This document shows positions 1,467 through 49,583 of a stretch of 53,264 nucleotides of DNA, piece by piece (within the stretch, counting starts at the first letter, position 1; every line of letters begins with the position of its first letter). The stretch comes from Sulfuritalea sp. GTDB taxonomy: Bacteria; Pseudomonadota; Gammaproteobacteria; Burkholderiales; Rhodocyclaceae. The DNA is taken from the NCBI GenBank assembly GCA_020853215.1, contig JADYZH010000187.1, forward strand, positions 1 to 53,264, read 5' to 3'. A program made the position numbers and the translations under genes. The notes beneath the pieces are model-generated. The model had not been told where the DNA came from. It saw only the letters and a program-made list of their open reading frames with translations, and made no database searches.

Positions 1467-1491
1467 GAAAAGTCGGCGCCGGCGGGACGCC
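1467..1491 (-). repeat. Dispersed GCGCCGACTTT repeat, copy 1 (intergenic)
   Basis: On the minus strand this is a copy of the motif G-[CG]-CGT-NN-CGCC-R-GCGCCGACTTT-Y; the exact 11-base core is at 1469-1479. It lies between the convergent ends of the membrane-protein gene and the glycosylase gene. An inverted partial copy (CGCCGAC at 1457-1463) faces GTCGGCG at 1472-1478 across an 8-base loop, giving a 7-bp hairpin. There is no T-run after it, so it is not a typical intrinsic terminator. Confidence 0.6.
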
Positions 1492-1498
1492 GATGGGT

Positions 1499-2221
1499 TC
1501 AGCCCTTGTCGCCCAGCCGCATCGTCCGGCGCATGAAGCACAGGTCTTCCCACGCCCTAGCCTTGTCGGGCAGGTTGCGCAGCAGGTAGGCCGGATGGTA
1601 GGTAACGACCACCGGAATGTCGTGGTAGCGATGCAACCGGCCGCGCGCCGCGCCGATCTTGACCTCGGTTTGCAGCAGGGTCTGGGCGGCCGGACGGCCG
1701 AGCGCGACGATCAGCCGGGGCCGGATCAATTCGATCTGGCGTTCGAGATGGGGCCTGCAGGTCGCAGTTTCTTCCGGCGTGGGGGTGCGGTTCTCCGGCG
1801 GCCGGCATTTGACCGCATTGGCGATATACACGTTCTCGCCGCGCCGCAGACCGATCGCCGCCAGCATGCTGTCGAGCAGTTTCCCGGCCTGACCGACGAA
1901 GGGTTCGCCGCGCGCATCCTCCTCCGCACCGGGACCCTCGCCGACGAACAGCCAGTCGGCATTGCGGTCGCCGACACCGAGCACCGCCTGGTTGCGTGCC
2001 TCGCAAAGCCCGCACTGGCGGCATGTGGCAACCGTCCTGGCCAGTTCATCCCAAGCCGGCGCGGCAACCGCTGACGCGCCGGCAGCAGGCGGATCGGGGG
2101 CGACCGTCGGCCCGGGCGCCGTGGCTACCTGTTCGCAGGGCACAGTTGTCTGTGGCAGGCGCAGCTTCCAAACGGGTCCCAGACCCATTTCGCGCAGTAT
2201 CCGTTCGCGCTCGGAATTCAT
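1499..2221 (-). CDS. Uracil-DNA glycosylase, family 4 (iron-sulfur type)
   Basis: This 240-residue protein removes uracil from DNA in base-excision repair. Motif A appears as GEGPGAEEDARGEPFVG (about residues 94-110) and motif B as TYHPAYLLR (about 207-215). Four cysteines, C67, C70, C139 and C155, have the spacing of the [4Fe-4S] ligands of family-4 enzymes (69 residues between the second and third, 16 between the third and fourth). The first ~60 residues are a low-complexity Pro/Ala extension, as is common in proteobacterial members annotated as a phage SPO1 polymerase-related protein. Its ATG overlaps the rimI stop (ATGA), so it is the last gene of the NfeD-SPFH-tsaB-rimI operon. Confidence 0.93.
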   Translation of the reverse strand: MNSERERILREMGLGPVWKLRLPQTTVPCEQVATAPGPTVAPDPPAAGASAVAAPAWDELARTVATCRQCGLCEARNQAVLGVGDRNADWLFVGEGPGAEEDARGEPFVGQAGKLLDSMLAAIGLRRGENVYIANAVKCRPPENRTPTPEETATCRPHLERQIELIRPRLIVALGRPAAQTLLQTEVKIGAARGRLHRYHDIPVVVTYHPAYLLRNLPDKARAWEDLCFMRRTMRLGDKG

Positions 2222-2658
2222 AGTTTGCGCGCCATCACGACGGCATCCTCACGTCCCGCACGCGCCGGATAATAATCGCGGCGGCGCCCGATTTCCTCAA
2301 AGCCATGGCGCAGGTAAAACCCCTGGCCGGCCAGGTTGCCCGGCCGGACCTCGAGCAGCATGCGCGTCGCCCCATGCGTCCGGGCCCATGCGACAATGTG
2401 GTCGAGCAGTGCCGAGCCGTGACCGCCGCGCTGCAATTCCGGAAGTACGCTGATGTTGAGCAGGTGGACTTCGTCGAGGACCTGCACCACGACCGCATAG
2501 CCGGTCATGCGCCCGCCCTCGCGCGCCAGCCATGCGCCGTGTCCGGCCGCCAGCGAATCGGCGAAATTGCCCCGCGTCCAGGGAAAGGCATAAATGCCGG
2601 CTTCCGCCGCTGTAACCGCATCGAGGTCCGCAACTGTCATATCCTGGTAACGGATCAC
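2218..2658 (-). CDS. rimI: Ribosomal-protein-alanine N-acetyltransferase RimI
   Basis: A GNAT-fold acetyltransferase of 146 residues that acetylates the N-terminal alanine of ribosomal protein S18, using acetyl-CoA. The acetyl-CoA pyrophosphate loop is visible as PELQRGGHGSALLDH (about residues 76-90), followed by LLEVRPGN and the characteristic C-terminal FYLRHGFEEIGRRRDYYP. I chose the GTG at 2658 because it overlaps the tsaB stop (TAGTG); an ATG at 2640 is the alternative. tsaB-rimI adjacency is conserved in many bacteria. The stop overlaps the start of the downstream glycosylase gene. Confidence 0.92.
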   Translation of the reverse strand: MIRYQDMTVADLDAVTAAEAGIYAFPWTRGNFADSLAAGHGAWLAREGGRMTGYAVVVQVLDEVHLLNISVLPELQRGGHGSALLDHIVAWARTHGATRMLLEVRPGNLAGQGFYLRHGFEEIGRRRDYYPARAGREDAVVMARKL

Positions 2659-3347
2659 TATTTCGCTCCGCCACGCGCCAGGCGTTCGGCAGTGGTCAGG
2701 GCCACCTTGTCGCGCACGTAGATGGGTTGCGCCTGTGCCGCCGGCGCTCCCTCGCCCCTGGCAAACGCCGGTGCCGCAAGGCGCAGCACGGCGGCGGCGG
2801 TGGGATATGCCTCGGGGCGAAGCCCGGCGAGGTCTGGCTTGCGGGCAGACAGCAGCGAACCGTAGGCGGCGAAGCCGTCGCCCACTCCCCAGCCGCCGGA
2901 GAAAGTCGGCGCGGGCGCCACGGCGGGCGGCAGGCAGGTCGGCGCCATGAGCTGCCCGACAACGTCTCCGTCGACCCGATAGGCGGCGACATACACCTCG
3001 TTCATCCGCGCGTCGAGGCAGGTCCAGACTTCGCGTTCGCCGCACGCCAGCGCCAGGGCTTCCAGGCTGGACACCGGCAGAACCGGAAGATCGAGACCCC
3101 AGGCCAGGCCCTGCGCCACGCCGCAGGCCAGGCGCAAGCCTGTAAAACCGCCGGGGCCGGCGCCGAAGGCGATGCCGTCGAGCTGCGCCTGGGTGATGCC
3201 GGCTTCCGCAAGCAGCTCGCGGGCCCATGGCAGGACGCGCTCCGAGCCGCCGTTGGCGATTTCCCCACTGCGCTCGATCAGCTCCCCATCCTGCCAGAGC
3301 GCGACTGACAACCGCCGCGTCGCGGTCTCGAACGCAAGCAAGCGCAT
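2658..3347 (-). CDS. tsaB: tRNA threonylcarbamoyladenosine biosynthesis protein TsaB
   Basis: This 229-residue protein is the non-catalytic partner of TsaD in forming t6A37 on ANN-decoding tRNAs. The ASKHA-fold start is intact: RLLAFETATRRLSVAL, then FGAGPGGFTGLRLACGVAQG (about residues 70-90) and the SSLEALA segment. Residues near 140-155 (AVAPAPTFSGGWGVGDGF) carry a Pro/Ala stretch encoded by a copy of the dispersed repeat (about 2900-2924), at a position where I would expect a shorter linker. It is followed immediately by rimI with a one-base overlap, and preceded by the SPFH gene with a 14-base gap. Confidence 0.93.
   Translation of the reverse strand: MRLLAFETATRRLSVALWQDGELIERSGEIANGGSERVLPWARELLAEAGITQAQLDGIAFGAGPGGFTGLRLACGVAQGLAWGLDLPVLPVSSLEALALACGEREVWTCLDARMNEVYVAAYRVDGDVVGQLMAPTCLPPAVAPAPTFSGGWGVGDGFAAYGSLLSARKPDLAGLRPEAYPTAAAVLRLAAPAFARGEGAPAAQAQPIYVRDKVALTTAERLARGGAK
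2900..2924 (-). repeat. Dispersed GCGCCGACTTT repeat, copy 2 (inside tsaB)
   Basis: The exact 11-base core is at 2902-2912 and reads in the sense of tsaB, encoding A-P-T-F within VAPAPTFSGG. Similarity to the copy inside the AddA-like gene extends over GCCGTGGCGCC before the core and CGGCGG after it. Confidence 0.65.
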
Positions 3348-3361
3348 GAAACCGCCGCCGC

Positions 3362-4216: not shown

Positions 4217-4227
4217 GACCTTTCCCT

Positions 4228-5297: not shown

Positions 5298-5321
5298 ATC
5301 CGGGCGCTGCTGCCGGATCCG

Positions 5322-8632: not shown

Positions 8633-9108
8633 GTCGAGGTAGAGCGCATGGCGCACATCAGGTCGGCCTCCGCCGCCACCTGGCCGTCGACTTTGGCCGT
8701 CGCCGAGAATTTCCAGATGCCGCGCTTGGTGGTCGTCAGTCTGACATCGAGCATTAGCTGGTCGCCGGGTCCGACCGGCCTCTTGAAGCGGGCGTTGTCG
8801 ATGCCGACGAAGTAGTAGACCGACACGCCGTCCGGCTTGACGCCCATGGTCTTGAAGGAGAGTATCGCTGCCGTCTGCGCCATCGCCTCGACCACCAGCA
8901 CGCCGGGCATCACCGGATGATGCGGGTAGTGACCGGGAAAGAAGGGCTCGTTCATGCTGACGTTCTTGAGCGCCGTGATCCGCTCGCCGGGAATCACCTC
9001 CAGCACCCGGTCTACCAGCAGGATCGGATAGCGGTGCGGCAGGTATTCGAGAATCCGGTGGATGTCCATGCTGGAATCGACGGCTACGCTTGCCACTGTG
9101 TCGCTCAT
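8629..9108 (-). CDS. fabZ: 3-hydroxyacyl-ACP dehydratase FabZ
   Basis: 159 residues, hot-dog fold. It dehydrates 3-hydroxyacyl-ACP in fatty acid elongation and competes with LpxA and LpxD for the same substrate, which fits its place between them. The family start [20 protein letters not shown] is clear, and the catalytic His and Glu lie in [19 protein letters not shown]. The ATG at 9108 overlaps the lpxD stop (ATGA), which favours it, but residue 14 is also Met (9069) and is closer to the usual family start. Confidence 0.96.
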
Positions 9109-10154
9109 GATTTCTTCTCCAATGCGGCGAGCCGCTGTTCCAGGGCGCGGATTTTATCGGCCATCGCGTCAAGGTGACGCAGCCGCGAAAAATTTCTCAG
9201 CCAGTCGCCATGCTCGAGCAGAGGGATGGCTCCGCTGTAGGTACCCGCGGCCGGAATCGACTTCATCACCAGCGTGCCGGCCGCCACATTGACGTCATCA
9301 GCAATGTGCAAGTGGCCGAGGATTATTGCGGCGCCACCTACCGTGCAGCGGGCCCCGATAAGGGTGCTACCGGCGATGCCGACGCAGCCTGCCATGGCGG
9401 TATGGGCGCCGATGCGGACGTTGTGGCCGATCTGGATCTGGTTGTCGAGCTTGACACCGTCGGCGATCACCGTGTCACCCAGCGCACCGCGATCGATCGT
9501 AGTGCCGGCGCCGATCTCGACATCGTCACCGATCAATACACGCCCCATCTGGGGAATCTTGACCCAGCGACCTTCTACCTCGCGGGCAAAGCCGAAGCCG
9601 TCGGCACCGATCACGGCCCCCGAATGCACCAGGCAGCGGGCCCCCAGGCGACTTCCCGGATAAATTGCCACGTTGGCCGCCAAGCGGCTGTCGATACCGA
9701 TCACCACCCCGGCCCCGATGCTGCAGTTCGCGCCGATGACGACGCCCTCGTCAACCGCGGCGCCCGGTCCGATCCAGACATTCGGTCCGATGCTGGCACA
9801 GGCGGCGACCTCGCCTTCCACCACTGCGCTCGGATGGATGCCGGGTTCCGGCGCCCGCGGCAGATTCAGCCATTGCGCCACGCGCGCGTAATAGAGATAA
9901 GGTTGCGCCGTCAGGATCGCCGCCACCCCCTCCACCGCCGGTGGCGCCATGATCACGGCGGCGGCGCGGGTGGTCGCCAGTTGATGTCGATACTTCGGAT
10001 TGGCGAGGAAGGCCAGTTCGCCGGGGCCGGCATTTTCCAGCGTCGCGATACGCGAAACCGCCGTATCGCCGGCACCGACTATCTCCCCGCCGAAGCGGGC
10101 GACGATCTCGTCAAGCCGGACCACCACGACGGGAGTCTTACTTGCCGCCGTCAC
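9105..10154 (-). CDS. lpxD: UDP-3-O-(3-hydroxyacyl)glucosamine N-acyltransferase
   Basis: 349 residues. The third enzyme of lipid A synthesis, adding the N-linked acyl chain. It has an N-terminal uridine-binding domain (about residues 1-100), a hexapeptide-repeat beta-helix beginning at [18 protein letters not shown] with the GADGFGFA loop and the catalytic-histidine motif [16 protein letters not shown], and a C-terminal helix ([15 protein letters not shown]). The start is a GTG at 10154 inside the end of skp (17-base overlap), with AAGG seven bases before it; GTG codons at 10127 and 10124 are alternatives without a ribosome-binding site. Confidence 0.96.
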
Positions 10155-16384: not shown

Positions 16385-17186
16385 TACCGTCCGTGAAGGG
16401 GGATGCAATAGTCGGCGCCGGCGCAACGGCGGCGACCTGATCCAGCTGTTCGCTGGTACGGCCGAAGCGGCGCTCGCGGCGGCGATAGGACTCTATCGCC
16501 GCATCCAGGGCCGCATCGTCGAAATCCGGCCAGAGTGTCTTGGTGAAATACAACTCGCTGTAGGCCAGCTGCCAGAGCAGGAAATTGCTGATGCGCTGTT
16601 CGCCGCCGGTACGAATGAACAGGTCCGGCTCGGGCGCATAGGCCATTGTCAGATGCGGCGCCAGATCACCCTCGCCGAAACAGCCAGCTTTTTCCGGATG
16701 CGCCAGCGCCAGCTGGTTGATGGCCTGCAGCATGTCCCAGCGACCGCCATAATTCGCGGCAATGGTCAGCGTCAGCTTGGAGTTATTGGCGGTCTTCGCT
16801 TCGCCTTCGCGAATCAGCGCCACCAGTCGCGGCTCGAAGGCCCCCAGGTCGCCCACCACCTTGAGCCGGACGCCATTGACATGCAGCTTGCCGATTTCGG
16901 CCTGCAGGGCGCCAATGAACAGATTCATGAGGAAGGACACCTCCTCCGCCGGCCGCCGCCAGTTTTCAGAGGAAAAGGCGAACAGGGTCAGGTAGTCCAC
17001 TCCCCGGGCAATGCAGGCCTTGACCATGGCCCGCACCGTTTCGACCCCGCGTTTGTGGCCGGCGACGCGCGGCATCATGCGCTTCCTGGCCCAGCGGCCG
17101 TTACCGTCCATGATGATGGCGATGTGCTGCGGCACATCGACTACCGCGGGAATGGCCTGCGTCGAGCTGGTGAATTTCCCTGCCAT
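16377..17186 (-). CDS. uppS: Undecaprenyl diphosphate synthase (isoprenyl transferase)
   Basis: 269 residues. A cis-prenyltransferase that makes the C55 lipid carrier for peptidoglycan and O-antigen. Motifs: [15 protein letters not shown] with the catalytic Asp, [21 protein letters not shown] and [19 protein letters not shown]. The family fold ends near [13 protein letters not shown]; the last ~20 residues ([18 protein letters not shown]) are an extra tail encoded partly by a near-copy of the dispersed repeat (16408-16418). The cdsA start lies inside this tail's coding sequence. Confidence 0.96.
16408..16418 (-). repeat. Dispersed repeat, near-copy 3 (inside the uppS 3' end)
   Basis: The core reads GCGCCGACTAT (one mismatch) and is preceded by GCCGTTGCGCCG, matching the extended consensus. 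It encodes A-P-T-I in the extra C-terminal tail of UppS, in the same reading frame as the tsaB and AddA copies. Confidence 0.5.
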
Positions 17187-25363: not shown

Positions 25364-28300
25364 TCATTCGTCGGGAGGATTGTATTCCAGTCTCGCCAGG
25401 ATGCCATGCGCGACATAAAACACCGCCAGGCGCAGCGGCCGACCCTCGCCGGCGAACAGCGCGGCATAGGCTTCGAGCTGCGGCCGGTAGCCTTCAACAT
25501 GGGCTGCGAGGCGCGCCGCGTCGGCTGACGCGCCGAGGTCGCTGGTCTTGTAGTCGATGATCCAGCGTACGCCGTCCTCGACGAAGCTGCGGTCGATAAC
25601 GCGGGTTTCCGCCCGGCCGCCCTCCCCGCGCCGCGCGATGGCCAGCTCGGCGCCGGCATCGGCGCGCGGCCGCAACAGCCACCGCCCATCCGCGCTGGAA
25701 AGCGTGGTCGCCAGCAGGCGCGCCGCCCGCTCCGCCCCGTCGCGCGCCTTGGCCTGCGGCCAGCCGCGCCCGGCCAGCCAGCGCTCGAAACCGGGCCGGC
25801 GCGCAGCGACGGCCCCGAGCGGCCAGGAGGCGGGATTGGTCGCCGCCATTTCCAGCAGCGCATGTACCAGCGTGCCGACATCGGCCGCCAGGGAATCCAC
25901 GACTTCCTCGCGCACGGCCGCTGCGGCGGGCAGCGGTGGCGCGCGCCAGGCAACGGGGATCGCGGGGGCTGCAAGACGGCACAGGCGCGGCACGAAGTAC
26001 GAGGCGTTCTCGCCGCCGCTAAAAAAAGTCGGCGCTGGCGCCACGGCGGCAGCGGAGAATTCGGCCTCGACGGCCGGCCACAGGCGGGCCAGCAGCGAAT
26101 TCGCCGCCGGCGTGGCCAGCGTGCCGTCCTCCCTGCGGCTGGCCACCGCCACCAGGTGCAGGCGGCGCACCGCGCGCGTGACGGCGACATACAGCACGCG
26201 CGCCGCCTCGTTGGCGGAGCGCTCATCTTCCAGTCCCTTCAGGAAATCGTATAGGGTCGGCTCGCCCGCGCCGCGCCGCCGCCGGCGATTTACCGGCGCC
26301 GCCAGCAGGCGCTCGCCGGCTTGCAGCGGCAGGCTGTCCCAGGCCAGGAGCGGCGCATCCGGCGGCCGCGTGGCACGCTGCAGGCCGAGCAGGATCACGG
26401 TGTCGAACTCGAGGCCCTTGGCCTTGTGGATGGTCATCAGTTGCAGGCGGCCGTCGGCCCGCGCATCGGCCGCGGCGAACAGCCGCGCCATGTCCTCTTC
26501 GAGGCTGTCCAGTGCGAAATGCCCCGCCGCGTCGAGCTCGTCCAGGCGTGCGAAGAAGGCCCGTGCATCGGACGCTTGCGATCCTTCGCCGAGGCAGGCC
26601 GGGCCGCCCAGCTTCTTCCAGGCATCTTCCACCCAGCGCCGGCGCGATACCAGCCCTTGCCCGGCCAGGGCTTCGGCCATGACTTCGCGCAGGTGGGCCA
26701 GACGGCACCGGCCGTCGGCCGACAGGCGCGCCACGCGCGCGTGGTCAGCCATCAGCGACCAGAGCGTCGAGTCGTGATCATCGGCGGCCAGCGTGTGCAG
26801 GTCGGCAAGCCGCAGCCCGCACCAGGGCGCGCGCAGGATCGCCAGCCAGTGCAGGCGGTCGCCGCGATGATGCAGGGCGCGCGTCAGCGAGATCAGGTCC
26901 TGCACCGCCTGGCGTTCGGCCAGCGGCTCGATTTCGACCGCGCGGTAGCGCCAGCCCGCCGGATGGCGGCGGATCGCCGCCGCCAGCGCGACGAGGTGGC
27001 TGCGCGCGCGCACCAGCACGGCGATCTGTCGTGCCGGATCGGCGCGCCACTCGGCCTCGATCACGGCCACCACGCGTTCGGCTTCGAGCTGCTCGCCGTC
27101 CTCGCCCTCGCCGGCCTCGGTAATCAGCGCATGCACCGCAACGCCGGCATCGGGCAGGTCTTCGCGCGTGGCGACGAAGGGCCGGTAGCCGATCTCGCCG
27201 CGCAAAGGTTCGTCATGCGCCGGGAAGAGCGGCGGAAAGCCGGCGTTGATCCAGTCCACCACCGGCGCACAGGCGCGGTTGTTGCGCGACAGACGCAGCG
27301 GCGTCAGCGGCAAGCCGCCGATGCCCTGTGCCTTGGCGCGCAGGAACAGCCCCACCTCAGCCTTGCGGAAGCGGTAGATCGACTGCATCGGATCGCCGAC
27401 GCAGAACAGCGTGCGGCCGTCGCCTGGCTGCCAGCCGGCGGTGAGGCGCTGCAGCAGCTCGACCTGGGTCGGGCTGGTGTCCTGGAACTCGTCGACCAGC
27501 AGGTGGCGGATGCGCCAGTCGAGGCGCAGGCCCAGTTCCGTCGGGTCCATGTCGTCGCCCAGGGCGGCGATGGCGCGCGCGGCGAGCTCGCCGAAATCCA
27601 CTTCGCCGGCCTCGCGGAACACCAGCCACAGCTCGGCCGCGGCGAGCTTCATCAGTCGCACCAGGGCGCGCACGATGGCGTCGTCCTCGTGTTGGGCCGC
27701 CGGCAGGCGGCGCAGGCGCACCAGGGCGGCGACGGCATCCGCGTCGAGGCCCGCCAGCGCGGCAAGCATGGCGTCCTTCTGCGCTTTGACCTCCCTGCCG
27801 GCGGGGAAGCCGTTCTTGACGTTGACCGCCTTGCGCGGGGTATCGTCGAGCGTCAGCAGGAAGGCGGCCAGCGCGCGCCAGCGCGGCAAATCCTCACTTT
27901 GCGCGGACAAGGCACGGTCCCAGTCGGCGAGCGCGCCTTCCCCCAGGTTGGCCGCGGCAAAACGCGCCAGCGGCATCCATGGCGCCTGCCAGGCCGGGCC
28001 CAGCGTCTGCACCGCGCTGGCGAGTTCCTCAGCAAGCATCTCTTCCAGCGCCGCGGCGATCGCCGATTCCGGATGATCAAGCGCGGCGCCTGATTGCAGC
28101 AGCGGACACCATTGGTCGCGCCGCGCCAGCATCGCCACCAGCAGGCCGATCAAGCGCTCGGCGTCGTTGTCCATCCAGGCCAGGGCGGCGGCCACGGCAC
28201 TTGCGTAGCCCTCGGCTTCGTCGCCGTCTTCGAGGTGGTCCAGGGCGCGGCGCGCGGCTTCGCGGTAATGCCGGCCGGCGTCCTCGACCGTCGCCGGCTG

Positions 28301-28720: not shown

Positions 28721-31476
28721 TCGCCCTCTGCCTCGAACTGCTGTTGGCGCTCGGCCAGCCGCAGCAAAGGCTTCACATCGCAATACTGGAGATCGCTTTC
28801 CTTCTGGAACACCACGGCGGCGGTACCCTCCTTCACCTCGCGCGCGACTTCGCGGATGCGCTCGGCCCACAGCGCTCGCAGCGCCGCCCAGTCGGGAAAG
28901 TCGGCGCCGGGGAAACGGCGGCGCTGCTGGTCGAGCGTGGCGACGCCGGGCAGCAGGCCCGCATCCGCGGCGACGCCGAGGAAGGCAGGGGCCTCGCGCG
29001 TCACGCGCGCCAGCGCGACGGCGGCGACGGCGCGGTCGGGGAAGGCCAGCGCGGCATAAATCGGCAGCTGCGGCTCGGTGATGCGCGGGTCGGCCCAGGT
29101 TCTGGTCCGGTCGGCGCGCCCGCTCTTGTAATCGATGATGGCCAGCCGCCCGTCGCCGGGTTCGTCGCCGAGTTCATCGACTCTGTCGACCACCACCGTC
29201 ACCGGCAGGCCTTCGATGTCCAGGCGGTGGCGTTCCTCGCGCGCCAGCACGCGGAAGGGGCTGCGCGTCGCCTCGACCTCGAGCCACGTGGCCAGCAGTT
29301 CGCCCAGGCGCTTCGCCTCCAGCGCGCGCAGGCGCGGCGGCAGCGGCAGGACGGCGACGCGGTCGTGGTCGGCCAGCGCCAGCGCCACGACGCGGGCTAT
29401 CTCGGTGGCACGCAGCCCGTCATCCATGGCCAGCAGTTCGGCCAGCCCGCGCCCGACCCAGAAAGCCTCGAGCGCGGCATGCAGCAGCGAGCCGCGCGCC
29501 AGCGCGTCGAGGCCGAAAGTCAGCGCCGGCAATACGGTGGCACCGAGGCGGTATCGGTAGAAAGCCCAGGCCGGACAAGCCGCCTGCGCCGCCAGCAGGC
29601 CCGTGCCGCCGTGGATCTCCTCGTCGGCGCCAAGTGGCGGCGCCCGCGAATCATCGATGAGCTCCAGGGCGGCATCGTCGACGAGGTCCAGCGCAGATTC
29701 AACGATGGCTTCGTCCGTCGCATCCGGCACCGGCGTCATGACCAGAGCCAGTTCGTCGAGCAGCGGGCTGCGGCGCAAGGCCTTTTCGCCCTCCTGCAGC
29801 GACCACGAAAAGACCACCTCGGCGGCGCTGGCGCACCACAGCGCCTGGGTTTCGCGCGCGGCATCGGCCAGGCTGTCGGCGCGCGCGGCGGGAACTCCGG
29901 CGCGGCGCTGCAACTCCGCCGGCAGCAGCGGATTGGGGCGCGGTGCCGGCGGCCAGGCGCCTTCGTTGAGGCCGATCACCCAGAGGCCATCGACCGCTCC
30001 GGCCAGCGCCTCGTCGAGGCTGCAGACCTCGACGCGCGGCGCGCCGCGACGCCGCGCGCGCAAGGCGCGATCGCCGCACTGGCGGCGCAGTTGGCGCAGC
30101 GCCTCGTTGCGGTCGATGCGGCCGAGGATGGCATCAAGCGCAGTCAGGCCGGCGATCAATTCGTCCAGCGCGTCGGCGGCGGCGGCCTCCGCCGCCAGCA
30201 ACGGGCGCTGCCCTGGCCAGCCCAGGGCGGCGAGCAGTTGGCCGAAGGTCAGGCCCCAGGCCGATGGCGCCTGGCGGCGCGAGGCCGCGCGCACGGCCAC
30301 CAGCAGTGCATCGAGGCTTTGCTCCAGCCGCGGTGCGGGAACCCGAGCGGTGAGGCGGCCGACCGCCGCGCGTAGTTGTTCCAGTGTAGCCTCGGGCGGC
30401 AACTTCTCGCGCAGGCCGGCTTCGATGCGGGCGCGCGCATCGGCCTCGTCGATGTCGGCCGACCATCCCGGAGCGCAGAGCAAGGCGCCGAACTCCGCCT
30501 GCGCGATGCGGCGCGGCACGGCGTAGATCTGCAAGAGCGACAGCGCCGTGGCGACCAGGGGCTGCGCCGCCAGCGGTTCGCCGCCGACAAATTCGTAGTC
30601 GCGTTCCTGTGCCGCCCAGCCGGCGCCGACGGCCTCCCCATGCAGGGTATCGGCGAAGGCGGCGTCGAGCTGACGCCGCCGCGCCGGCAGTTCCGCCACG
30701 GCGATGCGCAAGCGCAGCCGCGCGTCACCCGCCGTCTGCAGGCGTTGCCGGGCCCAGCCCGCGGCGGCACGGCATTCGGCTTCCGCCTCGGCGCATTCGA
30801 TACCGCGCAAGTTCGCTTTGCCGCCGGCACCGAAGTCGACGCGGAACAGATCGACCCCGCGCTCTTCCAGCACCAGCAACAAGCGCGAGACCAGCGGGTC
30901 GGGCAGGACGAAGCCGGCCAGTCCGATACGCGCCGGCAGGCCGCCCAGCCCGCGTTCGACGCAGGCGATGCGCCAGGCCAGGATGTCGTCCATACCGCGC
31001 CAGCCGCCGGCGCGGCAGGCGGCCTCGACATCCTCGCGCCAGCGAAGGAAGGCGGCGTATTCGGCGCTGTGCCAAGCTGAGGGGACCTCGATGCGCCAGC
31101 AGCGCTGCAGGCTCGCCGCCTCCAGCGCCGCCAGTGCCAGGCCTTCGCCGTCGAACAGCCCGGCCGCCGCGCCGGTGTCGCGCGCGATCGCCAATTCCCA
31201 GAGATTGCGCTCCTGCACCTGGCCGAGGAAGCTGCCGGCGGCGGCATCCGGCGGAAGCTCGCCGGCAAGCAGGGCGCGCGACACCAGGTGGTCCAGCCAC
31301 AGCGCCGGCGTCGCGCTTTGCAGCGCGCGCCAGGTCGTCGCGCCGCGCGCGGCCTGCGCCTCGCCGTGGGCACGGCGCAGATCGGTGGCCAGCCGCGCCG
31401 TGGCGCAGAGCACCACCGGCTCGGGCCCGCCGGGCAGGTCGGCGAGCGCGATGACGGGCAGGTCGGGACGGATCAT
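28717..31476 (-). CDS. AddB-like PD-(D/E)XK nuclease family protein
   Basis: 919 residues, the proteobacterial AddB-like class often annotated as a probable DNA repair protein. The N-terminal region is an inactivated helicase-like fold with no Walker A. The nuclease domain near the C-terminus has GSLLHAALEAFW, LAIIDYKSGRADR and QLPIYAALA. Such nucleases normally carry a four-cysteine iron-sulfur staple: here the first cysteine (AACPAWAFYRYRLGA) is present, but the C-terminal block reads LQYCDVKPLLRL, where I would expect two further cysteines at the leucines. It overlaps the AddA-like gene downstream and lies 7 bases after a 40-codon membrane peptide gene. Confidence 0.88.
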   Translation of the reverse strand: MIRPDLPVIALADLPGGPEPVVLCATARLATDLRRAHGEAQAARGATTWRALQSATPALWLDHLVSRALLAGELPPDAAAGSFLGQVQERNLWELAIARDTGAAAGLFDGEGLALAALEAASLQRCWRIEVPSAWHSAEYAAFLRWREDVEAACRAGGWRGMDDILAWRIACVERGLGGLPARIGLAGFVLPDPLVSRLLLVLEERGVDLFRVDFGAGGKANLRGIECAEAEAECRAAAGWARQRLQTAGDARLRLRIAVAELPARRRQLDAAFADTLHGEAVGAGWAAQERDYEFVGGEPLAAQPLVATALSLLQIYAVPRRIAQAEFGALLCAPGWSADIDEADARARIEAGLREKLPPEATLEQLRAAVGRLTARVPAPRLEQSLDALLVAVRAASRRQAPSAWGLTFGQLLAALGWPGQRPLLAAEAAAADALDELIAGLTALDAILGRIDRNEALRQLRRQCGDRALRARRRGAPRVEVCSLDEALAGAVDGLWVIGLNEGAWPPAPRPNPLLPAELQRRAGVPAARADSLADAARETQALWCASAAEVVFSWSLQEGEKALRRSPLLDELALVMTPVPDATDEAIVESALDLVDDAALELIDDSRAPPLGADEEIHGGTGLLAAQAACPAWAFYRYRLGATVLPALTFGLDALARGSLLHAALEAFWVGRGLAELLAMDDGLRATEIARVVALALADHDRVAVLPLPPRLRALEAKRLGELLATWLEVEATRSPFRVLAREERHRLDIEGLPVTVVVDRVDELGDEPGDGRLAIIDYKSGRADRTRTWADPRITEPQLPIYAALAFPDRAVAAVALARVTREAPAFLGVAADAGLLPGVATLDQQRRRFPGADFPDWAALRALWAERIREVAREVKEGTAAVVFQKESDLQYCDVKPLLRLAERQQQFEAEGE
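28897..28907 (-). repeat. Dispersed GCGCCGACTTT repeat, copy 5 (inside the AddB-like gene)
   Basis: Exact core, sense with the gene, preceded by GCCGTTTCCCCG. It encodes G-A-D-F, a different reading frame from the tsaB and AddA copies. Confidence 0.5.
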
Positions 31477-31652: not shown

Positions 31653-33008
31653 TCATGGCATGAGCCTGTCGGATGATGTTGCCGGATCGGGCGCCTGCAG
31701 TTCCGGCGCCTGCACCTCGCGCGGCAGGCTTTCCACCGGGGCGAGGTCGGCGATCTCGCGGTCCTCGCCGGCGACCTTGAGCTCGCGGAACTTGCGCGCC
31801 GAGACCAGGACGCGGGTTTCCAGCGAAGCCACCGACTTGTTGTAGGCGCCGACCGCCTCGCCGAGGTTCTTGCCGACCCGGCCCCAGTGCTCGGCCAGGG
31901 TGCCGAGGCGCTCGTAGAGTTCGCGCCCGAGCTGGCTGATGCGCTCGGCGTTCTCGGTCAGGGCCTGCTGGGTCCAGCCGTAGGCCACGGCGCGCAGGAG
32001 CGCGATCAGCGTGGTCGGCGTCGCCAGGATGACGCGCGAATCGACGCCGGCCTCGATCAGCGAGGGGTCGGCTTCCAGCGCGGCCGAGTAGAACATCTCG
32101 CCGGGCAGGAACAGCACGACGAAGTCCGGCGAGGGCTGGAACTGCTCCCAGTAAGACTTCTGCCCCAGCTTGCGCAAGTGGTCGCGCACCTGGCGCGCGT
32201 GGTCGGCGAGCTTGCGCTTCTTGCCCTCCTCGTCCGCCGCTTCGAGCGCGTCGAGGTAGGCGGCGAGCGGCGCCTTGGCGTCGACCACGATGTGCTTGCC
32301 GCCGGGCAGCCTGACGACCAGGTCGGGACGCAGGCGGCCCTCCTCGGTGTTGACGTTTTCCTGCTCGAAGAAATCGCAGTGGTCGAGCATGCCGGCCATC
32401 TCGACCACGCGCTTCAACTGCAGCTCACCCCAACGACCGCGCGTCTGCGGTGCACGCAGGGCCTTGACCAGGTTGCCGGTCTCGCCGCGCAACTGCTCCT
32501 GGCCGGTCGCCAGCGCCCGCACCTGCTCGGAGAGCGTCGCGTAGGCATCGCCGCGGGCCTTTTCCAGGCCGGTGATCTGCTGCTCGAATTTCTCCAGCGA
32601 GGCCTTCACCGGGGCGACCAGCTCGCCGATGGCCTGCTGGCGCTTTTCCAGTTCGCCTTTCGCCACCGACTGCTGTGCTTCGAGCGCGGCACGGGCGAGT
32701 TCGAGGAAGCTTTGGTTGTTCTGCGCCAGGGCATCGGCCGAGATCGCCTTGAAGGCGTCGGCAAACCCGCCCCGGGCGGCCTCGAGCGTGGCCTGGCGTT
32801 CGGCGAACAGCGCGCGTTCGCCTTCGAGTTCGCCTTGCAGCGTGGCGCACCGTACCGCCAGCGCCGACTTTTCATCGCGCAGGGCGGCGAGTTCGGTTTC
32901 GCGCTGCGCCAGCGCGGCGCGCACCTCCCTGACCCGCGCCGCGAAAACCACGGCGACCAGGCCGCCGCCGAGCAGCAGGCCGATGACGAGTGAGAAGGCT
33001 AGTTCCAT
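31653..33008 (-). CDS. rmuC: DNA recombination protein RmuC
   Basis: 451 residues. One N-terminal membrane helix (residues 4-23), a long coiled coil (about 25-185, Ala/Glu/Arg-rich), then the RmuC nuclease-like core with LKALRAPQTRGRWGELQLKR, RPDLVVRLPGGKHIVVDAKA and FVVLFLPGEMFYSAALE. By family knowledge it limits inversions at short inverted repeats and may be a membrane-anchored nuclease. The AddB/AddA genes follow in the same direction, about 47 bases downstream via the small membrane peptide, suggesting a recombination cluster. A palindrome (33023-33046) lies directly before the start codon. Confidence 0.94.
   Translation of the reverse strand: MELAFSLVIGLLLGGGLVAVVFAARVREVRAALAQRETELAALRDEKSALAVRCATLQGELEGERALFAERQATLEAARGGFADAFKAISADALAQNNQSFLELARAALEAQQSVAKGELEKRQQAIGELVAPVKASLEKFEQQITGLEKARGDAYATLSEQVRALATGQEQLRGETGNLVKALRAPQTRGRWGELQLKRVVEMAGMLDHCDFFEQENVNTEEGRLRPDLVVRLPGGKHIVVDAKAPLAAYLDALEAADEEGKKRKLADHARQVRDHLRKLGQKSYWEQFQPSPDFVVLFLPGEMFYSAALEADPSLIEAGVDSRVILATPTTLIALLRAVAYGWTQQALTENAERISQLGRELYERLGTLAEHWGRVGKNLGEAVGAYNKSVASLETRVLVSARKFRELKVAGEDREIADLAPVESLPREVQAPELQAPDPATSSDRLMP
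32861..32871 (+). repeat. Dispersed GCGCCGACTTT repeat, copy 6 (antisense inside rmuC)
   Basis: Exact core on the plus strand, preceded by ACCGCCA; rmuC reads the other strand here as K-S-A-L. It is the only copy opposite in sense to the gene that contains it. Confidence 0.45.
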
Positions 33009-34454: not shown

Positions 34455-36497
34455 TCATGCGGCCAGCACCGACAGTCCGCCAAAGCCCAGGCGCACCACG
34501 CCCGCAAGCAATAGTGCGACGCCGACCGACAGGGCCACGGAAAGCCAGGCGTCGCGCCGGCCGACGGTACGCAGCATGACGGCGAAGGTGGAAATGCAGG
34601 GAATGTAAAAGCTGAGGAATACCAGCAGCGTCACCAATTGCATCGGGTCGAGCAGGCGGTCGATATCCTGGGTACCCAGTGCCTGATAGATCATCAGCAG
34701 CGAGAGTTCCTTGCGCAGCACGCCGAACAGCAGCGGCACGCCCAGCGCCAGCGGCAGGCCGAGCCACCAGACCGTGACGGGAGTCAGCAGGGTATTGATC
34801 GCCGCATCGGCGCCGACATGGGCGAGCAATGCCAGCACCACGCTGCCACCCACCAGCAACGGTGTGACGATGGTCAGGATGTCGCTGGTACGCGCCCAGG
34901 TTTCCGCCAGCAAGGGGCGCAAGGCGGGAAGCGCATAGGCAGGAATCTCCTGCACCTGGCCCGGCCCCGGTTCGCGCCTGCCACGCGAAAGCAGGCGGCC
35001 CATGACGGCAATCAGGATGATGGTCAGCGCGAACATGCCGAACACGCCGGCGGCGCCGAGGTACTTGCCGGCAATCGCGAGGATGATGGCGGAACGGGCA
35101 GAACAGGGAACGAAAGTGATCAGCACCGAGGCGATGAGCCGTTCGCGGCCACGGGTGATCCTGGCTACCCCCGATATCGCCGGCACATTGCAGCCCAGGC
35201 CGAGCAGAAAGGGCACGGCGACGCCGCCATGCAGGCCGATCTGGTGAAAGCCGCGATCGACGACGAAAGCGATGCGCTGCATCAGTCCGGCCTGTTCCAG
35301 GCTCACCAGCAATACCACCAGCGGGATCATGTAGGGCACCACGATGCCAGTCAGGCCGAGCAGGCCATCCACGACCGCGCGCCCGACCACGCCGCCGGTG
35401 GCTTGCGGCTGCCAGCCGCCGAGGGCTTCGGCCAGGCGAACCGTGGTCATCGAATCGATCCAGCCGCTGATCTCGAACACCACGAACAATACCGCGGCGA
35501 ACACGGCGAGGCTGCCGATCAGACCCCATTGCGGATGCAGGAACAATTCGTCGAGCCAGAAGCGCAAGTCGCGCCTCTGCCCGGGCGCTCCCCAGTGCTG
35601 CGCCGCCTCGACCAGGCTGGCGGCGCAGTGGTGGCGGTCGGCGTGAAGCTCTTCAGCCAGGGGGCGCGGCAGACTGGCCCCGGCCGCCGCCCGCAAATCG
35701 CGCAATTCCGGCAGCAGTTGCGGAAAGTGTTGCGCGAGCTCGTCCTCGATGAAGCCGTCGGCCACCGCGAACTGGCACAGCAGCATGGGATGCGGCAGGC
35801 GGAAGGCAGCATGGACCTCCGGCCGGTTGAGTGCCGCCGAAAGCGGCGCAAGGCTCTGCAAGATATGCCGGCTGGGCGGTTGCGGCAGCGGGCAGGCTGC
35901 CTCGCGCGCGGCTTTGACCGCGGTATCGAACAACGCCGTAAGGCCCTGCCCCATCAGCGCCACGGTTGGCAACACCGGGATGCCGAGCAGTTGCTCAAGC
36001 GCCCTGACATTGACGTAAAGGCCCTTCTTCGCCGCTTCATCCATGCGATTCAGCGCCAGCACGATGGGGCGGTCGAGTTGGGCGAGCTCCAGCGTCAGTT
36101 CGAGGTGGCTTTGCAGGTTGCCGGCATCGACAACCTGGATGATCACGTCCGGTGCTGCAAAAGGCACCGGCGGGCCGGAGCGTTCGTGCATCGAGACCAC
36201 GGGGCGCTCGTCGCCCCAAAGCAGATATTTCAGCGCCAGGAGGTCATCGCCTTCCAGATGGTGCAGGGAACGGATGCCCGGCAGGTCGACCACGCTGGCT
36301 TCGTCGAAGCCGATCTGCACCAAGCATTCACGGTAGACGCCGTGCGCACCGGCCAACTCGCCGCGCCGCGGTGCCGTGCTCGACACGGCCTCGAACAGCG
36401 TCGTCTTGCCGCCGCCGGGCAGTCCGGCCAAAGCGATACGCAAGCGTCGATCGCCGCGGAACAGCGGCGTATGCAGGGGAACCCTGGCTTCGGTCAC
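34455..36497 (-). CDS. FeoB-like GTPase/ferrous iron transporter, divergent
   Basis: 680 residues. The N-terminal G domain has G1 GLPGGGKTTLFEAVSS (canonical FeoB reads GNPNxGKTTLFN), G3 VVDLPGIRSLHHLEGDDLLA and G4 LNRMDEA. The membrane part keeps both gate motifs, GLGCNVPAISGVARI and FVPCSARSAIILA, plus GVLRKELSLLMIYQALG and FYIPCISTFAVM. No feoA or feoC is nearby. The gene overlaps the upstream CBS/DUF294 gene (ATGA) rather than sitting in an iron operon. It could be a ferrous iron transporter or a relative for another divalent metal; the changed G1 loop suggests altered nucleotide handling. Confidence 0.85.
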   Translation of the reverse strand: MTEARVPLHTPLFRGDRRLRIALAGLPGGGKTTLFEAVSSTAPRRGELAGAHGVYRECLVQIGFDEASVVDLPGIRSLHHLEGDDLLALKYLLWGDERPVVSMHERSGPPVPFAAPDVIIQVVDAGNLQSHLELTLELAQLDRPIVLALNRMDEAAKKGLYVNVRALEQLLGIPVLPTVALMGQGLTALFDTAVKAAREAACPLPQPPSRHILQSLAPLSAALNRPEVHAAFRLPHPMLLCQFAVADGFIEDELAQHFPQLLPELRDLRAAAGASLPRPLAEELHADRHHCAASLVEAAQHWGAPGQRRDLRFWLDELFLHPQWGLIGSLAVFAAVLFVVFEISGWIDSMTTVRLAEALGGWQPQATGGVVGRAVVDGLLGLTGIVVPYMIPLVVLLVSLEQAGLMQRIAFVVDRGFHQIGLHGGVAVPFLLGLGCNVPAISGVARITRGRERLIASVLITFVPCSARSAIILAIAGKYLGAAGVFGMFALTIILIAVMGRLLSRGRREPGPGQVQEIPAYALPALRPLLAETWARTSDILTIVTPLLVGGSVVLALLAHVGADAAINTLLTPVTVWWLGLPLALGVPLLFGVLRKELSLLMIYQALGTQDIDRLLDPMQLVTLLVFLSFYIPCISTFAVMLRTVGRRDAWLSVALSVGVALLLAGVVRLGFGGLSVLAA

Positions 36498-38383
36498 AGC
36501 CTGTATTCGAGTTGCAGCCGCGACTGAAGGCGCTTGGCCTGCTTGAAGGCCTCCTTGAGCACCTGCCGGTCGAGTTCGTTGAGCTTGTCCGGGTCGACGC
36601 GGTTCTCGCCGCCGGGCGGGGTTCCCGCGCGCTGGTTACGCAGGCGCAGCTGCTGGATGAAGAAAAATCCCTCGATCATCGCGTTGATGTCGTCGCTGCC
36701 CAGCAGCGCCTTCGCTGCGGCGGCACGCAGCCGTTCCACGGTGTTGCTGTGCGGGATGCCGTGGGCCAGCGCGATGATGCGCGCCGCATCGACGAAGAGG
36801 CGGGCACCGAAGGCCTTGAGGTCGAGCGTGTGCGGAAAATCGGCATTGTTGTCGAAGGAGAAATCGCGGATCAGGCCCAGTGGCGGCGGCGCCTTCAGGG
36901 CATTTTCCGCCATGAAGCGCAGGAACAGCGCGGCATGCGCCGTCATCTCCAGCAGCCAGGCGCTCAGGTTCCTTGCCAGCGTCTCGTTGCCGTACAGCGC
37001 GCGAAAGTCGAAGAAGATCGTGGCATTCAGCAATGCCTCTGGCTCCGGCTTGCGGATCCACTGCGTGAAGCGCTCCTGCCACTCGTCGCGGGACAGGCAC
37101 CAGAGCGGATTGCTGGCCATGATGTTGCCCTTGCACAGCGGGAAGCCGCAGCGCGCAAGGCCTTCGTTGACCTCCCTGGCAAAGGCCAGGAAGCGGCGGC
37201 GCAGGGCCTCGGGATCGCTGCCCCCGGGGCAGGAAAAGATGATGCCGTTGTCCTGATCGGTACTGAAGGTCTGCTCGTCGCGACCCTCCGAACCGAAGGC
37301 CAGCCAGGCCCAGTCGAGTCCGTCCAGCGCGTGGCCGGCGCCGACGATCTCGATCACGCGGCGCGTCAGGCTGTCATTCAGGCCGGAGATAAACTGGGTC
37401 AGCTTCTCGGCATTGACGCCCTGCGCCAGCATGTTGAGGCAGAGCCGACGCACGTCGCCGGCGGCACGGCAAAGGGCATCGATGTCGGCGGCAGCCTCGA
37501 TCACCTTGCGCACGTTGCGCAGGCCGATGCGCTGCATGGCGAACAGGTCGCGCTCGGAAACCACGCCTGCCAGTTTTTCGTCGGCGTCGACGATCACCAG
37601 GTGCCGGATCCGGCGCATCGCCATGGCCAGCATCGCGTCGTAGGCGGTGGCGGTGGCGGTGATGATCGCCGGCGGTGCCGTCATCACCTCGGCGACGGGC
37701 GCCGTCGTATCGTGGCCCGGCACCACCACGCGGCGCAGCGCGTCGCTCTGGGTGAAAATGCCTAACGGACGGCCCTCGCCGTCGGCGACGACGACGGAGC
37801 CGACCCTGGATGTGACCATGGTCTGCATCGCCTCGGCGATCGGTGTGTCAAGGCCGACGCGCACCACATTGGGCCGCAGGAATGCCGCCAGCGACGAGTT
37901 CATGCTCTGCTGGTCGGAATTGCGCTGGCCGAACTGGATCTCGATCTGGCGCCGCGCTTCATCGAGCAGGCCGGCGACGTGGTCGAGGACGAAGCGGTTG
38001 AATTCGCAGCTGGAAAGCAGCAACGACGAAAAGTCGGCGCTGGCGAGACGCCAGACCCGCACCTCCCCCACCGCGCTATAGACGTTGATCGCGGGACGCT
38101 TCGCCGCCACTGCGGCAAGCGGAAAGCTCTGTCCCGGCTCAAGGTCGTACAGCGGCTGGTCGGTCAGATTCACGTCTCCTGCCAGGCGCGCCTGCACCTT
38201 CCCCAACTCGATGATGAACAGGTCGGGCGGCATCTCGGTCGGCGTCACGATGAAGCTGCCGCCGGCGACGTCGAGCGGCGTCAGCCCGGCAACCAGCGCC
38301 TTGAGGGCGAAGGCACCCATGTCCCTGAACGGTGCATGCTGGCGCAGGAAAGCGAGGAGTTCTTCGCGGGATTCGGAAGCCAT
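36494..38383 (-). CDS. cNMP-binding, CBS and DUF294 nucleotidyltransferase-like signalling protein
   Basis: 629 residues. In order: a cyclic-nucleotide-binding-like domain (about 1-140), two CBS repeats (about 170-290; VTSRVGSVVVADGEGRPLGI and MRRIRHLVIVDADEKLAGVV), a DUF294 nucleotidyltransferase domain with WLAFGSEGRDEQTFSTDQDN (about residue 360) that keeps the G-S and D-x-D pattern of the GlnD-type polymerase-beta fold, and the DUF294 C-terminal helical domain to the end. It may transfer a nucleotide to a protein or small molecule under adenylate control; no target is known to me. AAGGA precedes the ATG at 38383. It overlaps the FeoB-like gene. Confidence 0.88.
   Translation of the reverse strand: MASESREELLAFLRQHAPFRDMGAFALKALVAGLTPLDVAGGSFIVTPTEMPPDLFIIELGKVQARLAGDVNLTDQPLYDLEPGQSFPLAAVAAKRPAINVYSAVGEVRVWRLASADFSSLLLSSCEFNRFVLDHVAGLLDEARRQIEIQFGQRNSDQQSMNSSLAAFLRPNVVRVGLDTPIAEAMQTMVTSRVGSVVVADGEGRPLGIFTQSDALRRVVVPGHDTTAPVAEVMTAPPAIITATATAYDAMLAMAMRRIRHLVIVDADEKLAGVVSERDLFAMQRIGLRNVRKVIEAAADIDALCRAAGDVRRLCLNMLAQGVNAEKLTQFISGLNDSLTRRVIEIVGAGHALDGLDWAWLAFGSEGRDEQTFSTDQDNGIIFSCPGGSDPEALRRRFLAFAREVNEGLARCGFPLCKGNIMASNPLWCLSRDEWQERFTQWIRKPEPEALLNATIFFDFRALYGNETLARNLSAWLLEMTAHAALFLRFMAENALKAPPPLGLIRDFSFDNNADFPHTLDLKAFGARLFVDAARIIALAHGIPHSNTVERLRAAAAKALLGSDDINAMIEGFFFIQQLRLRNQRAGTPPGGENRVDPDKLNELDRQVLKEAFKQAKRLQSRLQLEYRL
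38030..38040 (-). repeat. Dispersed GCGCCGACTTT repeat, copy 7 (inside the CBS/DUF294 gene)
   Basis: Exact core, sense with the gene, preceded by GGCGTCTCGCCA, which is nearly identical to the flank of the copy before murI. It encodes S-A-D-F. Confidence 0.55.
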
Positions 38384-45218: not shown

Positions 45219-47201
<1,983 letters not shown>

Positions 47202-47352
47202 TGAAACCTCTCCTCTCTCATTGTGGCCGGATGATCCGGGTAAGGATATGTTCCATCACGCCCGCCCCGGCGGCTACCGGGCGGTTGGTCGATCAATGGC
47301 GGATGGAAGCAGGAACTGTCACCGGCGGCCTGACAGCCGGCCGGGATTGCGC

Positions 47353-47390: not shown

Positions 47391-47471
47391 ACATGACTTA
47401 CGCAGTCGCGCCGCAAGGAAGCGCCCGCCTGCGGTAAGATTGCCGCCCCGTACCAAGGACGACACCAGCCC

Positions 47472-48005: not shown

Positions 48006-48015
48006 GAGCCCCGCC

Positions 48016-49539
48016 ATGACCACCATCAAGCAGGAAGACCTGATCCAGTCGATCGCCGACGCCTTCCAGTACATCAGCTACTACCACCCGCTCGACTACA
48101 TCACGGCGCTGGGCGCGGCTTACGAGCGGGAGGAATCCCCGGCGGCGAAGGACGCCATCGCGCAGATCCTTACCAACAGCCGCATGTCGGCCGAAGGCCA
48201 CCGTCCGATTTGCCAGGACACCGGCATCGGCATGGTGTTCCTCAAGGTCGGCATGAACGTGCGCTGGGACGATGCGACCCTGTCGCTGCAGGAAATGGTC
48301 AACGAAGGCGTGCGCCGCGCTTACGGCAATGCCGACAATCCGCTGCGCGCCTCGGTGCTGGCCGATCCGGCGGGCGCGCGCCGGAACACGAAGGACAATA
48401 CCCCGGCCGTGGTGCATTACGACATCGTTCCCGGCGACCATGTCGAGGTGATCTGCGCCGCCAAGGGCGGCGGCTCGGAAGCCAAGGCCAAGTTCGCCAT
48501 GCTGAATCCCTCGGACGACCTGGTCGAGTGGATCCTCAAGACGGTGCCGACCATGGGCGCCGGCTGGTGTCCGCCCGGCATCCTCGGCGTCGGCATCGGC
48601 GGCACCCCGGAAAAGGCCATGCTGCTGGCCAAGGAAGCCATCATGGCGCCGGTGGACATCCATGAACTGAAAGCGCGTGGTGCAAAGACCCGTGCCGAGG
48701 AACTGCGCCTCGAACTGCACGAAAAGGTCAATGCGCTGGGCATCGGCGCCCAGGGCCTCGGCGGCCTCACCACGGTGCTCGACGTCAAGGTTCTCGACTA
48801 CCCGACTCACGCCGCCAACCTGCCGGTGGCGCTGATCCCCAACTGCGCCGCGACGCGCCACTGTCATTTCCACCTCGACGGCTCGGGCCCGGCGAAACTG
48901 CAGCCGCCGCGCCTCGAGGACTGGCCGGCGGTGACCTGGACGCCGGACCTCAAGTCCGCGACCCGCGTCGATCTCGACAGCCTGACCCGGCAGCAGGTCG
49001 CCGCCTGGACGCCGGGACAGAAACTGCTGCTCAACGGCAAGATGCTGACCGGCCGCGATGCCGCCCACAAGCGCATCGCCGACATGCTGGCGAAAGGCGA
49101 AAAGCTGCCGGTCGACTTCACCAACCGCATCATCTACTACGTCGGCCCGGTCGATCCGGTCGGCAGCGAAGTCGTCGGCCCCGCCGGTCCCACCACGGCG
49201 ACACGGATGGACAAGTTCACCCGCATGATGCTGGAGCAGACCGGCCTGATATCGATGGTTGGCAAGGCCGAGCGCGGCCCGGCGGCGATCGAGGCGATCA
49301 AGGACAACAAATCGGCCTATCTGATGGCCGTGGGCGGCGCCGCCTACCTCGTCGCCAAGGCGATCAAGTCGGCAAAAGTGGTCGGTTTTGCCGACCTCGG
49401 CATGGAAGCCATTTACGAATTCGAGGTCAAGGACATGCCGGTCACCGTCGCCGTCGATTCGCAGGGCAGTTCGGTGCACATCACCGGGCCCAGGGAATGG
49501 CAGGCGAAGATCGGCAAGATCCCGGTCAAGGTCGCCTGA
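48016..49539 (+). CDS. fumA: Fumarate hydratase, class I (iron-sulfur)
   Basis: 507 residues, the full-length single-chain form. It interconverts fumarate and malate in the TCA cycle using a [4Fe-4S] cluster. The likely cluster cysteines are C66 in GHRPICQDTGIGMVFLK, the cysteine in GAGWCPPGILGVGIGG and the first cysteine in NCAATRHCHFHLDGSGP. The C-terminal beta domain shows YYVGPVDPVGSEVVGPAGPT and TATRMDKFTRMMLEQTG. AGGAG eight bases before the ATG is the ribosome-binding site. Class I fumarases are oxygen-sensitive, which fits facultative or microaerobic growth. Confidence 0.95.
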   Translation: MTTIKQEDLIQSIADAFQYISYYHPLDYITALGAAYEREESPAAKDAIAQILTNSRMSAEGHRPICQDTGIGMVFLKVGMNVRWDDATLSLQEMVNEGVRRAYGNADNPLRASVLADPAGARRNTKDNTPAVVHYDIVPGDHVEVICAAKGGGSEAKAKFAMLNPSDDLVEWILKTVPTMGAGWCPPGILGVGIGGTPEKAMLLAKEAIMAPVDIHELKARGAKTRAEELRLELHEKVNALGIGAQGLGGLTTVLDVKVLDYPTHAANLPVALIPNCAATRHCHFHLDGSGPAKLQPPRLEDWPAVTWTPDLKSATRVDLDSLTRQQVAAWTPGQKLLLNGKMLTGRDAAHKRIADMLAKGEKLPVDFTNRIIYYVGPVDPVGSEVVGPAGPTTATRMDKFTRMMLEQTGLISMVGKAERGPAAIEAIKDNKSAYLMAVGGAAYLVAKAIKSAKVVGFADLGMEAIYEFEVKDMPVTVAVDSQGSSVHITGPREWQAKIGKIPVKVA

Positions 49540-49572
49540 GGCCGGACCGGGACCGCGATCGCCGTCTCGCCA

Positions 49573-49583
49573 GCGCCGACTTT
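49573..49583 (+). repeat. Dispersed GCGCCGACTTT repeat, copy 8 (immediately before murI)
   Basis: Exact core ending two bases before the murI ATG, preceded by GCCGTCTCGCCA. It occupies the place where a ribosome-binding site would normally be. Confidence 0.6.

Follow-up and report, generated by a model that had tools for sequence, protein, structure and literature searches.

A dispersed 24-base element in Sulfuritalea and related genera as a likely DNA uptake sequence

Uptake specificity for self DNA is known only from the Neisseriaceae and the Pasteurellaceae, according to a passage of PMC12616744 with which one in PMC5031613 agrees. The DNA uptake sequence (DUS) of the Neisseriaceae occurs in dialects, in one-mismatch copies and in terminator pairs (as set out in part of PMC3630211). 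For the uptake signal sequence (USS) of the Pasteurellaceae, a section of PMC7811141 describes a full-length motif of 31 bp in the Haemophilus influenzae model, with a relatively even distribution and molecular drive. Here we describe a dispersed element of Sulfuritalea sp., which the NCBI taxonomy places in the Sterolibacteriaceae, Betaproteobacteria. It was first seen in a stretch of 53,264 nucleotides (contig JADYZH010000187.1 of assembly GCA_020853215.1, positions 1 to 53,264; hereafter the window), where a first-pass annotation made from the sequence alone had read a repeated 11-mer as a candidate uptake sequence, with a small selfish repeat as the alternative. The 11-mer turned out to be part of a longer element that is dense in one betaproteobacterial clade, that of Sulfuritalea, Sulfurisoma, Rugosibacter and kin. 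In our judgement this element is quite likely a DNA uptake sequence spread by molecular drive.

The exact 11-mer occurs 415 times (215 forward and 200 reverse) in the 3.40-Mb assembly of the window's own genome (G000; 3,397,924 bases, 364 contigs; genus label g1). The pattern read backwards, which served as control in the same genomes, occurs 8 times (7 and 1). The count is thus not near expectation, and the copies are not confined to the region of the window. The upstream flank shared by the first copies belongs to the element as well, since the 11-mer is the 3′ part of the 24-base sequence CGCCGTNNCGCCRGCGCCGACTTT. Alignment of 51 fully flanked copies from 419,057 bases of G000 (the window and 20 further stretches) defined TCGCCGTVBCGCCRGCGCCGACTTTT, of which the first and last T are weaker and beyond which the bases are background. 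Seeding from the left part, CGCCGTNNCGCCRGC, recovered the identical right part, and the long motif is therefore not a seed artefact. The 21-base core CGCCGTNNCGCCNGCGCCGAC was found, with up to two mismatches, at 648 places in the assembly and at 9 in the control. The element is asymmetric and not palindromic.

This genome-wide over-representation goes far beyond composition and codon expectation. In 100 synonymous-codon shuffles of the 357 predicted genes of the 419,057-base sample, a codon-preserving control that had been proposed at first pass, the 11-mer, observed 28 times, averaged 1.99 (maximum 7), and the exact 22-base core, observed 20 times, averaged 0.1 (maximum 1). In genome G002, 15 were observed against 1.5, and 27 exact 22-base cores against 0.08. 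In an unseeded search of samples of G000, G002 and G028, the motif ranked first among the 12-mers. It was also top among the 12-mers present in at least four 2-kb bins in G152, G219 and G028, and surfaced weakly in 80 kb of G119, where the best 12-mer had 4 copies.

The copies in the window are as follows.

1469..1492, minus strand: motif copy, non-coding, between gene 386-1435 (plus) and a minus-strand gene ending at 1499
2902..2925, minus strand: motif copy, sense, phase 0, in gene 2658-3347 (minus)
10059..10082, plus strand: near copy, antisense, in gene 9105-10127 (minus); core 10059-10080 with 1 mismatch
16408..16431, minus strand: copy, sense, in gene 16377-17186 (minus); core 16410-16431 perfect, one mismatch in the T run
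26025..26048, minus strand: motif copy with perfect core, sense, phase 0, in the UvrD-type helicase/nuclease gene 25364-28720
28897..28920, minus strand: motif copy, sense, phase 1, in the PD-(D/E)XK nuclease gene 28717-31476
32848..32871, plus strand: motif copy, antisense, in the rmuC-type gene 31653-33008 (minus)
38030..38053, minus strand: motif copy, sense, phase 1, core with 2 mismatches, in the DUF294/CBS gene 36494-38383
49560..49583, plus strand: non-coding motif copy, core perfect, in the gap that separates fumarase gene 48016-49539 from an Asp/Glu racemase gene starting at 49585

All seven exact 11-mers reported at first pass were recovered, and both imperfect ones, at 16408 and 10072, match the 22-base core (0 and 1 mismatches). 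Their frames were also correctly described, with sense copies in two phases (2902 and 26025; 28897 and 38030), one antisense copy (32861) and two non-coding copies (1469 and 49573). With one mismatch allowed, the 11-mer occurs at 12 places in the window, whereas 100 dinucleotide shuffles gave 2.22 on average and never more than 7; the one-mismatch places at 5766, 20978, 29516 and 40301 are not among the window's 22-base-core matches at up to two mismatches. Its domains make gene 25364-28720 look AddA-like, while gene 28717-31476 looks AddB-like from its domain and its position.

The arrangement of copies was studied in samples with 71 copies in G000 and 75 in G002, in which genes were called with a purpose-written caller. 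Genes hold 40 of the 71 copies in G000, where they make up 86% of bases, and 48 of the 75 in G002 (83%). Non-coding DNA holds 31 copies on 14% of bases in G000 and 25, plus 2 partial, on 17% in G002, an enrichment of about threefold and twofold, respectively. Copies inside genes are sense 18 times and antisense 22 times in G000 (23 and 25 in G002), and some copies directly precede start codons. There is about one copy per 5 kb, with 77 on the plus and 69 on the minus strand in the stretches of both genomes. Like the DUS with its receptor ComP, the element is thus asymmetric and scattered in hundreds of copies over both strands, within genes and outside them, has dialects between species, and belongs to a betaproteobacterial host with a pilin of the ComP_DUS family. 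Unlike the DUS, it is longer and has no CTG core: CTG stands at positions 6-8, its place after GCCGT in the DUS, in 0 of 71 sites in G000 and 0 of 75 in G002. Its copies are also fewer, 631 at up to two mismatches against about 1900 exact ones given for N. meningitidis in a passage of PMC3630211. Compared with the USS, its sequence is unrelated and GC-rich, and it recurs every 5 kb or so and not every 1 kb or so (the USS figure being that of the same section of PMC7811141).

An RNA-level element (a terminator or a 5′ untranslated region signal) or a by-product of codon usage would be another source of repeated sequence, and the copies just before start codons would suit a 5′ signal. One copy could form a terminator-like hairpin: 3′ of the copy at 1469..1492 there is a degenerate inverted partner, judged by eye. 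A hairpin had been claimed at 1457-1478, and a possible partner does stand beside that copy, but pairing is not general. Of the non-coding copies, 1 of 31 in G000 and 0 of 27 in G002 (1 of 58 together) have a 7-base inverted partner, matching exactly, in the 40 nt on their 3′ side; for random non-coding stretches the rates were 3.2% and 2.2%. The hairpin is therefore a single case, and the terminator pairs of the DUS have no general counterpart here. With sense and antisense copies about equal in genes and hardly any exact cores in the codon shuffles, we give this explanation an almost negligible chance.

A strand-polarised sign for recombination or segregation, Chi-like or like an FtsK-orienting polar sequence (KOPS), would share with the element asymmetry, genome-wide abundance and restriction to a lineage. 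The AddAB-like genes of the window carry copies, and neighbouring copies are slightly more often on the same strand. However, 400 kb of G002, a genome in a single contig, hold 37 plus and 38 minus copies, mixed along the contig (the replication origin was not located), which argues against KOPS-like strand polarity there. The copies show no tendency to follow the strand of genes, and known Chi and KOPS sites are shorter than 24 bases, the element being far longer. A sign of this type is, in our view, extremely unlikely.

Copies are rarely close together. Among 127 intervals, 9 were shorter than 1 kb where 22.4 were expected, and none of 2000 uniform simulations gave a number as low; below 500 bases there were 3 against 11.8 expected. 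The regular dispersal noted at first pass is thus clear at short range, but over all intervals it is weak: the coefficient of variation of spacing was 0.862 against 0.977, and 6.9% of simulations were as low. By GC content, 4-kb segments below 0.59 had 1 site in 11 segments, those of 0.59-0.63 had 36 in 56, and those of at least 0.63 had 106 in 133. The scarcity at low GC fits a scarcity in foreign DNA, and could also reflect composition. Other dispersed repeats occur in these samples: one around ATTTCGCAGATT / TCCGCAGATTTC in G002 (L029-L048), with 9 and 11 copies per 400 kb and unrelated to the motif, and one of the TCCCACAAGGGG type, with 5 copies in 419 kb of G000.

How copies arise was followed at homologous sites. 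A test within single high-scoring segment pairs (262 comparisons: 154 with the motif kept, 92 of the same length, 16 with a small indel, no gap of 8 or more) was possibly biased against long gaps, and it was therefore repeated with the two flanks anchored separately. Homologous places in other species were sought for 184 query copies with at most one mismatch. This yielded 221 flank-anchored comparisons (38 query sites), in which the motif was kept in 125 and absent in 96. The motif-lacking targets were of equal length in 79 cases, longer by more than 9 bases in 15 and changed by small indels in 2. The comparisons reduce to 13 homologous places, 9 of them with a motif-lacking target and 6 with one of equal length, and all 5 query sites that have a gene call are coding. 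A mobile or selfish short repeat, akin to repetitive extragenic palindromic (REP) and REPIN sequences or to miniature inverted-repeat transposable elements, would have the high copy number and the non-coding enrichment seen here. Yet the element is not palindromic, and none of the 96 motif-lacking comparisons (9 places, coding where a gene call exists) showed a motif-sized gap, that is, a target shorter by at least 10 bases; no insertion footprint was found at the places compared. These alignments show that copies at the places compared were gained and lost by substitution. The element does not look mobile, and we hold the selfish repeat named as the alternative at first pass to be very unlikely.

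Two sites from the window illustrate this pattern. In the nuclease gene 28717-31476, G000 and G014 carry the motif directly before PDW codons; seven other species (and likewise L080) have different codons there, of equal length, and no motif. The site in the DUF294 gene lies in a gap-free alignment of 22 orthologues, its own included, with point changes in the motif-poor G017, G022 and G026 and in some dense species; at this site a conserved peptide alone may keep the DNA alike. In L058 and L085, motif copies in one of two close relatives contain or adjoin a short stretch around CCCGCTGCGGGGCATTCC, which resembles a small insertion into the motif.

Core copies exceed the controls in all 30 other genomes of the genus, from 96 in G017 to 797 in G023, the next lowest being G022 (207) and G026 (265). 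Counts close to the controls were found in six sister genera (5-15 copies) and in 24 genomes from other families of the order (0-20). When 249 genomes were drawn evenly from 68 genera of the family, 31 of them had at least 64 copies. These were all genomes drawn from g1 (9), g32 (1), g62 (1), g70 (4), g88 (7) and g38 (1), seven of the eight from g43 and one of the two from g47. The exceptions, G313 (g43) and G156 (g47), are motif-free with 1 copy each, so that g43 ranges from 643 (G197) and 364 (G152) to 1. The sole g69 genome drawn had 36 copies and all remaining family genomes at most 27. Among 20 genomes behind named contigs, which were picked from motif hits and are not a random sample, 18 were dense; they include Sulfuritalea UWPOB_SULF1 (755), Sulfurisoma sediminicola (297) and two metagenome-assembled genomes (MAGs) of Rugosibacter (340 and 255). 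The other two, MAGs of Thiobacillus (12; control 4) and of Casimicrobiaceae (8; control 5), were near background.

The RpoB tree had 23 rows, and the 10 with at least 64 copies all fell inside one 13-row clade (support 100/98), which also holds G313 (1 copy), G156 (1) and G118 (36). Six of 30 genomes, including the dense G081, G111 and G173, had no RpoB match, and G033, whose RpoB is in pieces, was omitted. On this single-gene tree the fewest changes are four, for example one gain and three losses. G313 and G156 have longer RpoB branches than their congeners, as if evolving faster, and their assemblies are small (2.3 and 1.7 Mb, 87% and 79% complete). In G313 (76,843 bases) neither the motif nor a replacement dialect emerged, and in G017 (66,824 bases) no replacement dialect did, while the motif did emerge in 80-kb samples of G152 (a congener of G313), G219 and G028. 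A search for a rival motif in other genera (G034 and G036, 200 kb each) found only other kinds of repeat, among them the CTTGTGGGAG and GTAGGTTGGGGTGAGC repeats of G034 (L232-L241), REP-like in appearance. Outside the clade, G047, G066 and G129 have a few perfect or near-perfect copies, possibly transferred DNA or contamination. In IMG/VR, at least 120 stretches of viral contigs contain the exact core (80 listed, L256-L335); by a rough estimate, the chance number in GC-rich contigs is not negligible.

Within the clade, the motif differs between species and genera as dialects (samples of 7-75 copies per genome). At position 18, G000, G002, G014 and G006 have G and G001 is mixed, while 70-76% of the G028 copies carry A. 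At position 22, G000 has T, and G002 has either T or C. Of the G152 (g43) copies, 82% have T at position 0, and 58% of the G219 (g88) copies have A at position 9.

In dense species the motif exceeds its flanks in conservation by a modest margin; in three sparse species it does not. In dense species, identity was 0.864 at motif positions and 0.796 in flanks (12 homologous groups, 216 comparisons), a difference of 0.068 (interval 0.004-0.130) that was positive in 10 of 12 groups. In the sparse species G017, G022 and G026 the values were 0.790 and 0.784 (interval of the difference -0.062 to 0.073; 8 groups, 46 comparisons). Where groups had both types of target, the excess was larger for dense targets in 6 of 7. 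Per query site, the values were 0.890 against 0.804 in dense species (difference 0.086, interval 0.052-0.118) and 0.810 against 0.775 in sparse ones; these sites are not independent, and the figures are accordingly weaker once grouped by homologous place. The difference weakly suggests that the motif is maintained by something that is active in dense genomes but has waned in sparse ones.

Conservation of this kind could also come from a clade-specific protein that binds DNA inside the cell, for example in organising the nucleoid or chromosome, with its sites selected at hundreds of places. A long, asymmetric, genome-wide motif that is limited to a clade with motif-poor members, somewhat better conserved than its flanks and enriched in non-coding DNA, would suit such a protein, which we regard as the main rival. 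However, a base change at most copies between congeners, as at position 18 between G028 and G000, is hard to obtain by selection on each site. The deficit of close copies fits one tag per fragment better, and copies stand inside genes in both orientations. We consider this explanation unlikely.

Molecular drive through biased uptake predicts that a motif is over-represented, arises by substitution in place, is seldom found in close copies, occurs on both strands, favours permissive sites and forms dialects. The uptake-sequence reading made at first pass gains support from the short-range even spacing, the use of both strands, the tolerance in genes and the dialects. The motif would be a tag bound by the surface competence machinery, whereby DNA of the same lineage is preferentially taken up. 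A surface receptor, for which a type IV minor pilin resembling ComP_DUS or FimT is our best guess, would prefer motif-bearing DNA, ComEC would import one strand, and recombination would swap resident near-matches for motif-bearing alleles, so that copies would accumulate by molecular drive.

The competence genes sought were found in part. ComEC (PF03772) is present in 30 of 31 genomes of the genus, missing only in the 79%-complete G030, and a ComP_DUS pilin (PF16732) in 29 of 30 genomes tried, the window's own included (C327), and in none of 14 control genomes. Several points weigh against an uptake sequence. ComEC also occurs in 25 of 30 other genomes and in 22 of 22 family genomes tried, without stops in the motif-poor G313, G156 and G118, which excludes its loss as the cause of motif loss. 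The ComP_DUS pilin is present with or without the motif and fails as a marker of it. Since both occur in motif-free relatives, neither predicts the motif. The ComEA model TIGR00426 matched nothing in the window's own genome and nothing above cut-off in the 31 genus genomes; 19 of the 31 had weak matches, whose frames measure about 790-940 aa in 18 cases and 550 aa in one, and these are probably another protein. The receptor is thus a guess. At 24 bases the motif exceeds the usual figure of 9-12 nt for uptake sequences, though the full-length USS of the H. influenzae model has 31 bp. It lacks the general inverted pairing discussed above, and it did not rank first among k-mers in 100 kb each of G001 and G026. 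Neighbouring copies show a slight and unexplained same-strand excess (76 against 51), with no long-range polarity. The conservation interval in dense species nearly touches zero. Finally, the homologous-site evidence comes from 13 places only, and non-coding insertions could be missed because 110 comparisons were dropped on flank grounds (80 with a flank missing, 27 with one ending more than 25 bases away, 3 too far).

In the open-licence full text searched, no paper joined "DNA uptake sequence" with "Rhodocyclaceae", or "Sulfuritalea" with "uptake sequence" or "natural transformation", and broader literature searches there gave no report for the clade among the top matches listed. Taking all the evidence together, we think it probable that the Sulfuritalea/Sulfurisoma/Rugosibacter clade has a third, independently evolved system of self-DNA uptake, with a multi-block motif of 24 bases that is read by a receptor, was gained once, was lost in G313 and G156, and has diverged into dialects of species and genera. 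If so, natural competence would be implied in Sulfuritalea. A third case with an unrelated and longer motif would also offer a comparative test of how uptake specificity originates, spreads by drive, changes dialect and is lost. Because the clade offers dense and lost states within g43 and shifted dialects within g1, the drive model would be directly testable in it.

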